Shown in pieces: positions 2,298 through 47,080 of a DNA stretch of 64,000 nucleotides. Positions within the stretch are counted from its first letter, which is position 1, and the number at the start of each line of letters is the position of its first letter. This stretch comes from an uncultured Opitutia bacterium (GTDB lineage Bacteria > Verrucomicrobiota > Verrucomicrobiia > Opitutales > Coraliomargaritaceae): the NCBI GenBank assembly GCA_937136395.1, contig CAKZOI010000022.1, positions 1 through 64,000 on the forward strand, read 5' to 3'. Both the position numbers and the translations under genes were made by a program. Under the pieces are notes generated by a model that was not told where the DNA came from, did no database searches, and saw only the letters and a list, made by a program, of their open reading frames with translations.

Positions 2298-3473
2298 CTA
2301 AGCGGAGCGCTTTCCGAGGAATTTGACGAAATGGATACCGAACTGAACGATCATGCCGAGCCCCATTAGGAGCACGCTGACATAGGGCAATATCCAACCG
2401 GGGTTGCGCACGACCTGAAAAATCGAGGTCTTGTCGTTGTTGGCAAACGACGCTTGGTAGAAGGTGAGCCCTTCGTAACGCAGTGGGTGGTTCATGTAAA
2501 TCAGTGCCTTTTGATTCTTAGTGGAATCGTTGTGATGCACCATGACTTCGCTGGAGTAGTTGAATGGAATCTCTGTTCCAGGATACTTGTCGTGTTTGAA
2601 ATCGATGAGCTCGACTTCGAATGGGTGGTAATAGCGTGTGAACCGCAGGGCGATTTCCCAAGATTGATCGCCTAGTTGAACCATTTGTGGAGGGAAGCGC
2701 TCGTCGATCACGTTCGATACCATCCAAACGCCCAGTGAATCCTCTGGGCCGAGCACTTCTACATATGCGGTGGCAGTGTTAATGGTATTCTCTGAGTAGA
2801 CGGCTTCCTTTGGGTTGACGACGATGCCCATTTTGACGGCAGCTCCTTGAGTCGCGGGCGATGGAACGGCTTGCCCGCTCGTTGCGCGACCAATTTCAGC
2901 GTTAGGGTAATACTTAACTGTTCGAATGCGTAGTGGTGAGTCGGGAACCTCGATCGTTTTGCCAGGTTTCAGTAGCTTCGCCGGAATCGAGTGCACCGTG
3001 TCGTGGTCTGGATGGCTGCGATCAATGAAGACGAGTTCGTTATCTCGGAACGCCTGTGAGTAGTTATTGCGCCCCCCTTCATCCACTGGCATCTGGCTTT
3101 CGACGGATAAAAGGTCGGTCATGAGCTCGCTGACAAGGAGTAAGATCAGTCCGAAGTGCACGAGGAAAATGCCACTTTTCTTCCAACTCATTTTGAAGCG
3201 AGTGATGTGAGCGGCGATCAAGTTGATAAATAGTAGGCCCCCGAGTGCGTATCCGCCAGGCATGGGGATGTGTAGCCAAAACAAGGCGTCGTATAGGGCG
3301 GCTTGCTTGGGCACAGAGTAGATGACGAAGAAACTCTCAAAATAATCTTTCTGTGTTTTCCAAATACCAGTGTCGACTTGCGCCAAGGTGCCGAAGAAAA
3401 TCAGCATCATGGAGAATCCGAGTAATACGACGGTAAGCTTCAGTGAGCTGAAAAAGTTGAAGAGGTTTTTCAC
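2298..3473 (-). CDS. resB: ResB/Ccs1-family cytochrome c biogenesis protein
   Basis: Second half of the system II (Ccs) cytochrome c synthetase. It starts with a membrane segment in the ResB pattern (FFSSLKLTVVLLGFSMMLIF), followed by FGTLAQVDTGIW, two further hydrophobic helices before residue 130, a large periplasmic domain, and a C-terminal helix (about 360-385) after LRYEGLTFYQASF, a block usual in ResB proteins. Length 391 residues, within the family range of about 350-550. It sits between a small lipoprotein gene (3 bp upstream) and ccsA (6 bp downstream), so the three form one transcript. Assignment rests on the N-terminal and C-terminal family motifs and on the ccsA neighbour. Confidence 0.88.
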   Translation of the reverse strand: MKNLFNFFSSLKLTVVLLGFSMMLIFFGTLAQVDTGIWKTQKDYFESFFVIYSVPKQAALYDALFWLHIPMPGGYALGGLLFINLIAAHITRFKMSWKKSGIFLVHFGLILLLVSELMTDLLSVESQMPVDEGGRNNYSQAFRDNELVFIDRSHPDHDTVHSIPAKLLKPGKTIEVPDSPLRIRTVKYYPNAEIGRATSGQAVPSPATQGAAVKMGIVVNPKEAVYSENTINTATAYVEVLGPEDSLGVWMVSNVIDERFPPQMVQLGDQSWEIALRFTRYYHPFEVELIDFKHDKYPGTEIPFNYSSEVMVHHNDSTKNQKALIYMNHPLRYEGLTFYQASFANNDKTSIFQVVRNPGWILPYVSVLLMGLGMIVQFGIHFVKFLGKRSA

Positions 3474-43144: not shown

Positions 43145-44611
43145 ATGTCTGAACTGTATTTCAAAACTATCACTGAACTCTCCGCGATGCTTGCGGCGGG
43201 TGAAACCACTTCTGTCGAAATCACTCAAGCGGTGATCGACCGCACCGCGGCTGTCGACGGCCAGGTGAAAGCCTTTCTTTCCACCGATAATGACGATGCG
43301 CTGGCACAAGCCAAAGCATCCGACGAGCGTCGTGCCGCAGGCAATGCGCTTGGGCCACTTGATGGTATCCCAATCGGTATTAAAGACACCCTCGCGGTGA
43401 AGGATCAACCGCTTCGTTGCGCGTCCAAGATGCTCGAGAACTACGTATCTCCCTTCGACGCGACCTGTATCGTCAAGCTCCGCGAAGCGGGCGCGGTGAT
43501 CTGGGGCCGTCTCAATATGGACGAATTTGCGATGGGTTCCTCGACCGAGAACTCTGCCTATCAAACCACCGCCAATCCCTGGGATCTCGAAACGATTCCC
43601 GGTGGCTCTTCCGGTGGTAGTGCCGCAGCGATGGCGGTGGGGGAGGCGATTGCGACACTCGGCACCGATACCGGCGGCTCGATTCGTCAGCCGGCTGCAC
43701 TTTGTGGTGTGGTTGGGATGAAGCCAACCTACGGACTTATTTCTCGCTACGGACTCGTGGCCTTTGCATCCTCGCTTGATCAAGTCGGTCCGTTTGCCCG
43801 CACGGTGGAAGACGCCGCATTGTTGATGGAAGCGATGCTCGGCAAAGACGACCTCGATTCGACATCCATCGCACCGCAGGGTGAAACGAATTACGCCGAA
43901 GCGCTCAAAGAAAAGAAAGGACCGTGGAAACTCGGCGTGCCACGTGAATTCTTCGGCGAAGGCATCGACCCTGAAGTAAAGGCCAACATCGAGAAAGCCA
44001 TCGACTGGTATAAGAGCCAAGGCAGTGAGATCGTTGATATTTCTTTGCCGCACTCCGAGCTGGCTGTTCCCGTTTACTACATAGTCGCGACAGCGGAAGC
44101 GTCGTCCAACCTCGCTCGTTTCGATGGGGTGCGTTACAGTCACCGTAGCGAAGAGTCCAAAGATGCGCTCACACTCTTTACCAAGAGCCGTGGCGAAGGC
44201 TTCGGCGATGAAGTGAAGCGCCGTATCATTCTCGGCACTTATGTGCTCAGCTCTGGTTACTATGATGCGTATTACTTGCGCGCTCAGAAAGTGCGTCGTT
44301 TGATCCTTGGCGATTTCGAGAATGCCTTTGAGCAATGCGATGCGATCCTCACACCAACTTCGCCGACACCTGCGTTCAAGCGCGGCGAGCGAAGTGATGA
44401 TCCACTCGCGATGTATCTCAGTGATGTTTACACCATCTCGGTCAACCTCGCTGGCCTGCCCGCCATCTCCGTGCCCAGTGGTTTCACCGAAAGCGGCTTG
44501 CCCATCGGCCTCCAAGTCATCGGCAAAGCCTTCGGCGAAGCCGACATGTTCGCCGTAGCCCACTCGTTTGAGCAGGCACATGATTATCACAAACAGACAC
44601 CTGCTCTGTAA
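43145..44611 (+). CDS. gatA: Glutamyl/aspartyl-tRNA amidotransferase subunit A
   Basis: The amidase subunit: it frees ammonia from glutamine and passes it to GatB. 488 residues. The Ser-cisSer-Lys triad is visible: Lys in DGIPIGIKDTLAVKDQ, cis-Ser in GGSSGGSAAAMAVGEAIATL (as amidase signature), nucleophile Ser in GTDTGGSIRQPAALCGVVG. GLISRYGLVAFASSLDQVGP follows. The C-terminus SFEQAHDYHKQTPAL is intact and its stop is 5 bp from the GxxExxY element. Same strand as gatC and gatB. Confidence 0.97.
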   Translation: MSELYFKTITELSAMLAAGETTSVEITQAVIDRTAAVDGQVKAFLSTDNDDALAQAKASDERRAAGNALGPLDGIPIGIKDTLAVKDQPLRCASKMLENYVSPFDATCIVKLREAGAVIWGRLNMDEFAMGSSTENSAYQTTANPWDLETIPGGSSGGSAAAMAVGEAIATLGTDTGGSIRQPAALCGVVGMKPTYGLISRYGLVAFASSLDQVGPFARTVEDAALLMEAMLGKDDLDSTSIAPQGETNYAEALKEKKGPWKLGVPREFFGEGIDPEVKANIEKAIDWYKSQGSEIVDISLPHSELAVPVYYIVATAEASSNLARFDGVRYSHRSEESKDALTLFTKSRGEGFGDEVKRRIILGTYVLSSGYYDAYYLRAQKVRRLILGDFENAFEQCDAILTPTSPTPAFKRGERSDDPLAMYLSDVYTISVNLAGLPAISVPSGFTESGLPIGLQVIGKAFGEADMFAVAHSFEQAHDYHKQTPAL

Positions 44612-44616
44612 TTAAT

Positions 44617-45049
44617 TCTCACGCAAAGGCGCAGAGATGGACGCGAATGAAATAAGCAAGGAAGTTGTAGATGCATCCGTAAAGGTGCACCAAGCGCTGG
44701 GGCCTGGCTTGCTGGAAAGTGTCTATGAGGCGGTTCTATGTAAGGAACTGTCAACGCGAGGGCTGTCCGTGAAGTGCCAGGAGCCTGTATCAATTAACTA
44801 CGATGGAGAGGTTATTGGAGAAGCTTTCCGTGCAGATGTCGTCGTTAACGATTTAGTGATTCTAGAGCTCAAATCTGTGGAGCAAATGAGTAAGCTTCAT
44901 CACAAACAACTTTTCACCTATCTAAAACTATCAAACAAACCCCTAGGACTTTTACTTAACTTCGGAGCATCTCTAATGAAGGACGGGATCGTTCGAGTCG
45001 TTAACAATCTGCCCGAGTAATACTTTGCGTCTCTGCGCCTTTGCGTGAG
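44617..45049 (+). mobile_element. Candidate minimal mobile element: GxxExxY gene between inverted repeats
   Basis: The left arm TCTCACGCAAAGGCGCAGAG ends directly at the ATG, and the right arm (45023-45049, ends CTCTGCGCCTTTGCGTGAG) starts 2 bp after the stop codon. Nothing else is inside. The first codons ATG GAC GCG AAT even look like a continuation of the arm. Two gene-less elements with the same arms follow at 45169-45313 and 45432-45585. The unit sits in the gatA-gatB gap. Mobility is inferred from structure; no transposase or recombinase of a known family is present. Confidence 0.62.
44637..45020 (+). CDS. GxxExxY family protein (PD-(D/E)XK nuclease-like)
   Basis: 127 residues. The name-giving motif is GLLESVYE (Gly-x-x-Glu-x-x-Tyr) at about residues 24-31. 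FRADVVVNDLVILELKSVE contains D-x(9)-ELK, the PD-(D/E)XK active-site pattern, and LHHKQLFTYLKLSNKPLGLL is the following conserved helix. The family is widespread and often in many copies per genome, with no settled function as far as I know. The gene is exactly bracketed by inverted repeats and lies inside the gat operon, so it is likely passenger DNA and not part of tRNA amidation. Codon use is more AT-rich than gatA or gatB. Confidence 0.88.
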   Translation: MDANEISKEVVDASVKVHQALGPGLLESVYEAVLCKELSTRGLSVKCQEPVSINYDGEVIGEAFRADVVVNDLVILELKSVEQMSKLHHKQLFTYLKLSNKPLGLLLNFGASLMKDGIVRVVNNLPE

Positions 45050-45078
45050 CCCCTTTTTATATCAGTCAATTTTTCATC

Positions 45079-45312
45079 ATGGAATACGAAGCCGTCATCG
45101 GACTTGAAATTCACGTTCAAATCAAAACCCGCACCAAGATGTTTACCGCCGCGCCTGCAGGATTTTTGTCTCACGCAAAGCCGCAGAGGCGCAAAGTTAA
45201 GCTGCTACAATGTTTAAATAGTATGCTTTGTTTTTGCAGAAGTTTATATCTACACAATCTTAGTTTCATAAGTCCCGATCAACACCCTTTGCGTCTCTGC
45301 GCCTTTGCGTGA
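45079..45312 (+). pseudogene. gatB: Duplicated gatB 5' fragment, copy 1, running into element A
   Basis: The ATG at 45079 opens 26 codons almost identical to gatB (MEYEAVIGLEIHVQIKT...FTAAP, to 45156), then 12 bp (GCAGGATTTTTG) and element A. The frame stays open through the element (LSHAKPQRRK ... PLRLCAFA) and stops in its right arm. Compared with the intact gene it has several substitutions, including K2E and V15I, more than copy 2, so it appears the oldest duplicate. Its leader (29 bp before the ATG) also matches that of gatB. Confidence 0.88.
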
Positions 45313-45313
45313 G
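45169..45313. repeat. Gene-less inverted-repeat element A
   Basis: 145 bp. Left arm starts TCTCACGCAAAGCCGCAGAG, right arm ends CTCTGCGCCTTTGCGTGAG; over 27 nt the arms pair with two mismatches. They match the arms around the GxxExxY gene. The interior of about 90 bp is AT-rich and unlike element B or the GxxExxY gene. Confidence 0.85.
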
Positions 45314-45341
45314 CCCCTTCTCATACTAGTCATTTTTCATT

Positions 45342-45584
45342 ATGAAATACGAAGCCGTCATCGGACTTGAAATCCACGTCCAAGTCAAAACCCGCACCAA
45401 GATGTTAACCGCCGCGCCTGCAGGATTTTTGTCTCACGCAAAGCCACAGAGGCGCAAAGTTGGATTGGTTCAATGTATCAATGATCTGTGCAGTTTCTTC
45501 AGTCGATTAGATCTCCAGAATGTATCTAATTTTTGTCATATACGTTCTGATCAAAAGCCTTTGCGTCTCTGCGCCTTTGCGTGA
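45342..45584 (+). pseudogene. gatB: Duplicated gatB 5' fragment, copy 2, running into element B
   Basis: The ATG at 45342 opens 26 codons (MKYEAVIGLEIHVQVKT...LTAAP, to 45419) that differ from the intact gatB start at only about one codon (Met-Leu for Met-Phe at 21-22), followed by the same 12 bp GCAGGATTTTTG and element B. The frame continues through the element to a TGA in the right arm, giving an 80-residue product with the same LSHAKPQRRK and PLRLCAFA tail segments as copy 1. Confidence 0.88.
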
Positions 45585-45585
45585 G
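45432..45585. repeat. Gene-less inverted-repeat element B
   Basis: 154 bp with the same arms as element A and the GxxExxY element (left TCTCACGCAAAGCCACAGAG, right CTCTGCGCCTTTGCGTGAG). The interior differs from A. It is followed by the leader CCTCTTTTCATACTAGTC and the intact gatB. Confidence 0.85.
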
Positions 45586-45613
45586 CCTCTTTTCATACTA
45601 GTCATTTTTTATC

Positions 45614-47080
45614 ATGAAATACGAAGCCGTCATCGGACTTGAAATCCACGTCCAAGTCAAAACCCGCACCAAGATGTTCACCGCCGCGCCTTACGAATAC
45701 GGTGCCGCGCCCAATACATTGACCGACGCCGTTGTGCTCGGTCTTCCGGGCACCTTGCCGGTGCTCAACCACGCGGCGATCGAAAAGTGCGCCAAGCTCG
45801 GCCTCATGCTCGGCTGCGAGATCGCCGAGGTCTGTAAGTGGGACCGGAAGAACTACTTTTATCCGGACTCGCCCAAGAACTACCAGCTTACACAAAACGA
45901 GCAGCCGCTCTGCATTGGTGGTAAAGTCGAAATCGAGCTGCCCGGCCCATCGCGCAACGTCGAGGGCGAGCACCGCTGGGTCACGCTCAACCGCATCCAC
46001 CTCGAAGAAGACCCCGGCAAGCTGACCCACGAGGCCTTCGAGACCGTGATCGACTTCAACCGCGCCGGCGTCCCGCTCGCCGAGATCGTGACCGAGCCGG
46101 ACATGAGCTCTTCCACCGAGGCCGTCGCTTTCCTCAACGCTCTACGCAACCTCATCGTCTATGCCGGTATTTCCGACTGCGACATGGAGAAGGGCCAAAT
46201 GCGCTGCGACGCCAACGTCTCCCTGCGCCCCGTCGGCTCCGAGAAACTCGGCACCCGCACCGAGATGAAGAACCTCAATTCCATTTCCAACGTCAAAGCC
46301 GCCATCGAATACGAGATCGAGCGCCAGACCGAGATCCTCGAAGAGGGCGGCAGCATCGTGCAGGAGACTCGCCGCTGGGACGTCGAGAGCGGCACCAGCT
46401 TCTCCCTCCGTAGCAAGGAAGAAGCCCACGACTACCGCTACTTCCCCGATCCCGACCTCATGCCCGTGCAAATGGATCGCGCCCGCGTAGCCGAGCTCGA
46501 AGCCGAGCTCCCCGAGCGCCCGCTCGATAAGCAGCGCCGCTACCAGCAGGAGCTCGATTTGCCCTTCACCATCACCTCCGTGCTCTGCGTCAACCGCGAG
46601 CTGAGCGAGTTCTTCGAGGAAGCCCTCAAGACGCACAACGCGCCCAAGCAGATCGCCAACTACATCACCAACGACTTGCTCCGCGAACTCTCCGCCGCCT
46701 CCGAGCACGGTGACAGCGCCCTTGACGTCAGCCAATCGAAATTGACGCCCGCCCACATCGGCACCCTGGCCAAGATCATCGACGAAGGCGTCATCTCCAA
46801 GCAGATCGGCAAAGAAGTCTTCACAGCGATGTTCCTAACTGGCCAAATGCCCGATGCCATCGTCGAAGAAAAAGGTCTCAAGCAAAGCAACGACACCGGC
46901 GAAATCGAAGCCCTCTGCCGCGAAGCAATCGCCGGTAATGCCAAAGCAGTCGGTCAGTATAAAGACGGCAACGAAAAAGCCCTCAACGCCCTCAAAGGCC
47001 CCGTCATGAAAGCGACCAAAGGTAAAGCCAATCCGGCTATGCTTGACCAGCTATTGAAGAAGCTGATTGATGAGGGCTGA
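45614..47080 (+). CDS. gatB: Glutamyl/aspartyl-tRNA amidotransferase subunit B
   Basis: 488 residues. MKYEAVIGLEIHVQVKT is followed by PYEYGAAPNTLTDAVVLGLP, WDRKNYFYPDSPKNYQLTQN, RIHLEEDPGKLTHE, FNRAGVPLAEIVTEPDMSSS, and GQMRCDANVSLRPVGS; the C-terminal YqeY-like tRNA-binding domain ends LKGPVMKATKGKANPAMLDQ. GatB activates the mischarged glutamate or aspartate. The first 26 codons and the leader exist twice more upstream. Between about 45700 and 46750 the gene is strongly C-ended at third positions (CTC, GAG, AAC, CGC), unlike most neighbours. Confidence 0.97.
   Translation: MKYEAVIGLEIHVQVKTRTKMFTAAPYEYGAAPNTLTDAVVLGLPGTLPVLNHAAIEKCAKLGLMLGCEIAEVCKWDRKNYFYPDSPKNYQLTQNEQPLCIGGKVEIELPGPSRNVEGEHRWVTLNRIHLEEDPGKLTHEAFETVIDFNRAGVPLAEIVTEPDMSSSTEAVAFLNALRNLIVYAGISDCDMEKGQMRCDANVSLRPVGSEKLGTRTEMKNLNSISNVKAAIEYEIERQTEILEEGGSIVQETRRWDVESGTSFSLRSKEEAHDYRYFPDPDLMPVQMDRARVAELEAELPERPLDKQRRYQQELDLPFTITSVLCVNRELSEFFEEALKTHNAPKQIANYITNDLLRELSAASEHGDSALDVSQSKLTPAHIGTLAKIIDEGVISKQIGKEVFTAMFLTGQMPDAIVEEKGLKQSNDTGEIEALCREAIAGNAKAVGQYKDGNEKALNALKGPVMKATKGKANPAMLDQLLKKLIDEG

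Follow-up and report, generated by a model that had tools for sequence, protein, structure and literature searches.

What is a single small gene, closely bracketed by inverted repeats, doing between gatA and gatB, and can such a unit move? The window analysed here, a stretch of 64,000 nucleotides from an uncultured Opitutia bacterium, has a gap of about 1 kb between these two genes which holds an ORF of 127 aa belonging to the GxxExxY family (Table 1). An earlier sequence-only reading had taken this ORF and its repeats for a candidate minimal mobile element. This unit of 433 bp belongs to a widespread class of cassettes in which a single small ORF lies between inverted iteron arrays. The account that we prefer, with a probability of a little under 0.6, is a homing-like one in which the nuclease would act at arm-type sites, cleavage being the presumed step, and the cassette would be copied in by repair.

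Table 1. Features of the gatA-gatB interval, in positions of the window.
Feature	Position	Strand	Remarks
gatA, upstream, co-directional	43145..44611	+	ORF; syntenic in relatives
Left arm	44618..44637	+	CACGCAAAG GCGCAGAG, two period-8 iterons; last base is the A of ATG
GxxExxY PD-(D/E)XK nuclease gene, 127 aa	44637..45020	+	PF13366 / TIGR04256; conserved catalytic residues; model pLDDT 94
Right arm	45022..45049	-	Three period-8 iterons (CTTTGCGTCTCTGCGCCTTTGCGTGAG)
gatB codons 1-26, first duplicated copy	45079..45156	+	94% identical to copy 2
Gene-less element 2	45170..45313	.	Arms 45170-45196 and 45287-45313; 90-nt interior
gatB codons 1-26, second duplicated copy	45342..45419	+	99% identical to gatB
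Gene-less element 3	45433..45585	.	Arms 45433-45459 and 45559-45585; 99-nt interior
gatB, intact copy, downstream, co-directional	45614..47080	+	ORF; 92-95% aa identity in near relatives

The gene is enclosed, as had been stated at the outset, by a perfect 20-nt inverted repeat (44618-44637 / 45030-45049), with the left arm running up to the start codon and the right arm reaching inward to 45022, two bases past the stop codon, and matching the neighbouring arms over 28 nt. The arm motif occurs six times in the 64 kb against 0.21 occurrences expected, and all six lie between gatA and gatB. A search of the host genome for further copies of the arm pair found none and returned four weak single matches (two phage-like contigs), and no RNA family was found by Rfam in positions 44500-45700. 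Single arm-like motifs (CTCACGCAGAGGCGCAGAG) are present in phage-like contigs of the host (L009 at 1500 and 2063, L010 at 1243, L012 at 1502); those in L009 lie ahead of genes in direct orientation, with GxxExxY absent nearby.

Two gene-less arm pairs do exist just downstream (Table 1), and the sequence-only reading had likened their relation to the GxxExxY unit to that between MITEs and autonomous elements. This part of the reading did not hold up. Both gene-less elements belong to a tandem duplication whose units, 263 and 272 bp long, contain the gatB leader together with the first 26 codons (gatB'), and are therefore local duplications rather than independent insertions, the arm pair having no other copy in the host genome. 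The tandem units share one junction, GCGCCT-GCAGGATTTTTG-TCTCACGC, which places the duplication break point at the outer arm end. The interiors of the two elements are identical in 61 of 99 aligned columns, compared with 94-99% identity for the gatB' copies; either gatB' has been homogenised or the interiors have been exchanged. The gatB' frames are open through the gene-less elements (45079-45312 and 45342-45584; 77 and 80 aa) and end in ...PLRLCAFA.

The expectation that arms would be found around GxxExxY genes generally was confirmed in the host family and in other groups. The host genome contains three GxxExxY genes whose inverted arms differ in sequence from gene to gene, and in the host family such genes were found in 23 of 44 genomes with up to ten copies per genome, many of them decayed. 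Arms, defined as an inverted repeat scoring at least 30 within 400 bp, are present at 50 of the 63 full-length genes of the family, compared with 5.6% of cross-paired control flanks judged by the same score. Relatives from many phyla have them at 64 of 76 loci, as opposed to 1 of 781 shifted control positions in the same contigs. This second sample covers one subfamily only (80 loci, sampled from 84,980 species genomes), since a broad alignment of 47 sequences was too diverse for a contig scan, and it is drawn from Verrucomicrobiota, Planctomycetota, Cyanobacteria, Desulfobacterota, Chloroflexota, Acidobacteriota, Bacteroidota and others. Gene-less arm pairs were also found in an unbiased 400-kb scan. 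Unrelated REP-like palindromes (CGTAGGGGCTTTGCTTGCGAAGCCCGCG) were observed as inverted pairs at G010:C1:894027-905385 and 1049399-1049618.

A typical arm consists of three iterons with a core of 6-7 nt and a period of 8, 9 or 10 nt, as in AACC-GCAGAT-NNAC-GCAGAT-NNAC-GCAGAT or TCACGCAAAG-RCGCAAAG-RCGCAAAG. Between the left and right arms of one element the cores agree at about 0.9-1.0 whereas the spacer positions agree at 0.38-0.70. The iterons look like protein-binding sites rather than a selected stem, as a stem selected for pairing would keep both cores and spacers. Arm similarity tracks protein similarity with a Mantel r of 0.53 (at most 0.13 in 2000 permutations), and with an r of 0.68 in the host family alone (permutations at most 0.18). 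The correlation is carried mainly by pairs of more than 60% identity, below which r is 0.16 (family only). One protein subfamily has the same period-8 arm across many phyla, and within one genome its arms differ from those of other subfamilies; the arm type goes with the protein clade rather than with the host.

The window protein matches TIGR04256 (E 6e-41; 139 bits against a cut-off of 35) and PF13366 (E 1.6e-40; 138.6 bits against a cut-off of 22). Its D-x(9)-ELK pattern, which had been compared with PD-(D/E)XK nucleases, proved to be part of a conserved active site of the form E..D-x9-(E/D)xK, with E22, D62 and (E/D)72-x-K74 kept in 47 relatives and K74 invariant. The structure model is a PD-(D/E)XK core (Table 1), and the fold search recovered this general core without pointing to any particular relative (best Z 8.6, Foldseek E 0.025), the near-tied PDB matches being archaeal Hjc, XisH, Cas4-like proteins and the R2 endonuclease. 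A sequence search of the PDB gave no significant match, T7 endonuclease I appearing at E 1.4; this enzyme has the same catalytic spacing as GxxExxY, which we did not count as evidence. The dN/dS ratios of 0.1-0.4 in five comparisons of GxxExxY genes point to purifying selection on the protein. GxxExxY has the direction of its upstream neighbour in 75 of the 81 elements with near neighbours, and 58 of 61 genes point likewise among elements with co-directional flanks, the neighbours in this count being long ORFs rather than curated genes. Expression probably depends on read-through, since the orientation follows the upstream gene. Double-length homologues of about 240-270 aa (L003, L105, L106, L107) have their own arm type, with ACAGAATCATT every ~16 nt.

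Searches of PADLOC and PHROGs gave no firm match, and the best that PADLOC returned was a marginal match to Cas4 (E 0.009). This bears on the idea of a defence or addiction cassette, whose protein would protect the host or itself. A small nuclease would suit such a role, as would the antitoxin-like gene bracketed by the gatA-gatB arm pair of one relative, but with the Cas4 match so marginal, no partner gene beside GxxExxY and frequent decay to pseudogenes we consider it very improbable. No relative of the window GxxExxY subfamily was found in IMG/VR viral contigs, so that viral carriage is unsupported here, and the plasmid search for relatives yielded only seven records.

What lies at the gatA-gatB site varies among near relatives: differing elements, arm pairs that lack a gene, or short gaps. 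GatB of the window is 93% identical to that of G001, a genome of the same genus, compared with 63% for the GxxExxY proteins at the same site, and the window protein is closer to Verrucomicrobiota proteins of other groups (up to 70%) than to that of G001. In G021 the gatA-gatB arms are of the GCAGAT type and bracket a small antitoxin-like gene, not GxxExxY (L019, complement of ~3035-3260). A second hotspot was found in the host family between leuB and alaS (L192-L221), where either GxxExxY or an S23 four-helix gene lies between differing arms. The GxxExxY elements at this hotspot have four arm types, and the S23 gene is found between GAACGTCGAAC-type arms in six genomes. An internally deleted GxxExxY with intact arms (L219), a composite with a remnant of another arm outside it, single-arm remnants and arm-free short gaps were also observed, and most other genomes of the family have remnants at this locus. 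We found no empty allele that lacked arms and had near-identical flanks; the short arm-free gaps at gatA-gatB and leuB-alaS occur only in divergent genomes. The clean pairs of empty and occupied sites that the sequence-only reading had named as support for mobility were thus not obtained, and the evidence for mobility consists of exchange between occupied alleles.

Such exchange is clearest in the Dolichospermum group, at an intergenic site between convergent genes. Three types of element, each with arms and a protein of its own, occupy the same position there, one of them reversed. The proteins are 66-78% identical between types and 90-97% identical within types in these genomes. G057, G064 and G069 have one type each, with flanks that are 97% identical and proteins that are 69-78% identical, and a tree of the 3-kb flanks pairs G065 (type C) with G069 (type B) as sisters. 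The flank tree of 11 genomes requires at least six type changes, and a single clade for each element type is rejected by the AU test (p 1e-5, 4e-7 and 7e-53). The differences reach no further than about 20-27 bp from the left arm on the outer side, and about 10 bp from the right. Element types have been replaced repeatedly at this fixed site with the flanks almost untouched, a replacement that belongs to the Dolichospermum-group relatives and not to the window copy. G066 has a mini arm pair with no gene at the swap site. The two flanks of the site are separated in G070, G071 and G073 (L286, L297, L284, L299, L283, L300), and G070 has a decayed GxxExxY remnant on the left-flank side. For a second cyanobacterial element, L301, the flanks were too repetitive for an empty-site search to be read.

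Ordinary homologous recombination among related strains might also have shuffled nuclease genes that are neutral or useful to the host, in which case the arms would serve in processing or as terminators and would not be ends for mobility. The flanks at swap loci are indeed homologous and the loci persist vertically over whole families. We nevertheless judge this unlikely, as the swap boundaries lie less than about 30 bp from the element on both sides in independent comparisons (G057/G064, G065/G069), closer than ordinary tracts would lead one to expect, arm type travels with the protein, and many genes decay between their arms. A conventional transposon, with GxxExxY as the transposase acting on terminal inverted repeats and the gene-less pairs as MITEs, would explain the inverted ends, the copy numbers of up to ten per genome, the gene-less pairs of the unbiased 400-kb scan and the internally deleted L219. 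On the other hand, no convincing target-site duplication of 2-12 bp was found in 99 elements whose boundaries were set by repeat alignment, the sites are persistently fixed (gatA-gatB, leuB-alaS and the cyanobacterial locus), and the window arm pair is confined to one locus in the host genome. These three observations disfavour ordinary transposition, as do the swaps, which replace about 20-27 bp beyond the left arm as well. We regard the transposon as quite improbable.

Of the S23 genes (TIGR02436), 15 of 29 in the host family have arms, compared with 0 of 106 controls, as do 21 of 24 in the Dolichospermum group, compared with 1 of 92 controls, the arms in the latter being tandem heptamers. 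GxxExxY and S23 genes occur together in 22 genomes of the host family, each occurs without the other in one genome and 20 genomes have neither (Fisher p 3.7e-10), a co-occurrence figure that might also arise through genome reduction. The S23 arms of the Dolichospermum group (L303-L331) are inverted heptamer arrays that resemble the cyanobacterial heptanucleotide repeats.

The S23 genes lead to the intervening sequences (IVSs) of 23S rRNA. The Coxiella IVS has terminal inverted repeats, an ORF in the sense of the transcript and, ahead of the start codon of S23p, three GACAGAT heptamers (PMC4990558). The GxxExxY cassettes share with it a length of about 430 bp, one small sense ORF between terminal inverted repeats, short tandem repeats within these that run as far as the start codon, fixed sites of insertion, and decay (PMC4990558). 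They differ in their cargo, an unrelated PD-(D/E)XK nuclease, and the window unit sits between the protein genes gatA and gatB and not in an rRNA helix, the location that defines a 23S rRNA IVS. From the shared anatomy and the shared leuB-alaS locus we infer that the IVSs may be linked to the GxxExxY cassettes. An RNA-level element of the IVS kind, in which the arms of the transcript would pair and RNase III would remove the insert, with spread via RNA or a reverse transcriptase in trans, would agree with the marked preference of the gene for the sense of its upstream neighbour, with the Coxiella anatomy and with the alternation of S23 and GxxExxY at leuB-alaS. However, the arm spacers are often non-complementary while the cores are complementary, so that pairing is not what is conserved; the protein has a core of the DNA-nuclease type with a conserved active site; and the need for read-through expression also explains the orientation. 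We therefore regard the RNA-level element, including its spread through RNA, as rather unlikely.

The homing-like cassette is favoured by the arm counts, the contrast between cores and spacers, the coupling of arm and protein, the swap locus, the gene orientation, the dN/dS ratios, the nuclease fold and the divergence of the window GxxExxY from that of G001 beside a well conserved GatB. The GxxExxY nuclease would bind the iterons and would cut DNA at rival arms, mini alleles or the cognate site. The break would then be repaired from a donor chromosome with another element, whereby the cassette would be copied in as in homing, and decay would give rise to the gene-less arm pairs. Against this, the swaps could have arisen through ordinary recombination and then been kept by selection. 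Moreover, the S23 elements have the same anatomy with no known nuclease, so that the nuclease is not the sole mover for the whole class. The failure to find a clean empty allele, the low arm-protein correlation below 60% identity and the unspecific fold matches also speak against the homing-like account. The proposal that a nuclease moves by cutting and repair, unlike ordinary transposons, fits best where it concerns element exchange and the conserved active site, with cutting itself still presumed.

The recurrence of the arrangement across many bacterial phyla, and the replacement of one version by another at a fixed cyanobacterial site, suggest that minimal selfish elements of this kind form a widespread class. 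As far as the open-licence literature goes the class is apparently undescribed, the arm sequences being absent from it and its mentions of 'GxxExxY' concerning other matters. We tentatively propose, at somewhat less than an even chance, that inverted iteron arrays with one small ORF (GxxExxY, S23 and perhaps others), swapping at occupied sites, form a previously unrecognised bacterial superfamily which would include the rRNA IVSs and account for the heptanucleotide repeats of cyanobacteria and Xanthomonas. If true, this would assign both a function and a class to a gene family that is very common but unexplained, and would explain widespread short repeats. The origin of the 23S rRNA IVSs, which like their function has been termed unclear (PMC4990558), would also become testable by comparison with intergenic relatives.

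Several known systems resemble the cassettes in part. The STRR repeats of cyanobacteria and the GGGAATC repeats of Xanthomonas are tandem 7-mers, often in inverted pairs, and the S23 arms of the Dolichospermum group have the same form; in the portions of the source papers available to us these repeats are described as of unknown function, with no link to S23 or GxxExxY (PMC2670836, PMC4692102). REPINs and RAYTs likewise combine short inverted repeat pairs tied to one protein clade, gene-less derivatives and coevolution of repeat and protein (PMC3116915). GxxExxY, however, is a PD-(D/E)XK protein by Pfam and by its model core and not a HuH tyrosine transposase, the arms bracket the gene itself, and they are iterons of period 7-10 instead of palindromic REPs, with the window arm pair not being dispersed in the host. 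MITEs and IS elements share the terminal inverted repeats and the internal-deletion derivatives, whereas the cassettes have fixed sites, no target-site duplication and no DDE or tyrosine transposase. As in homing endonuclease genes, alleles at a fixed site are replaced by a nuclease gene while the flanks change little; unlike these, the cassettes have iterated inverted arms matched to the protein and lie outside introns and inteins, and the exchange observed is from one occupied allele to another, not into an empty allele.
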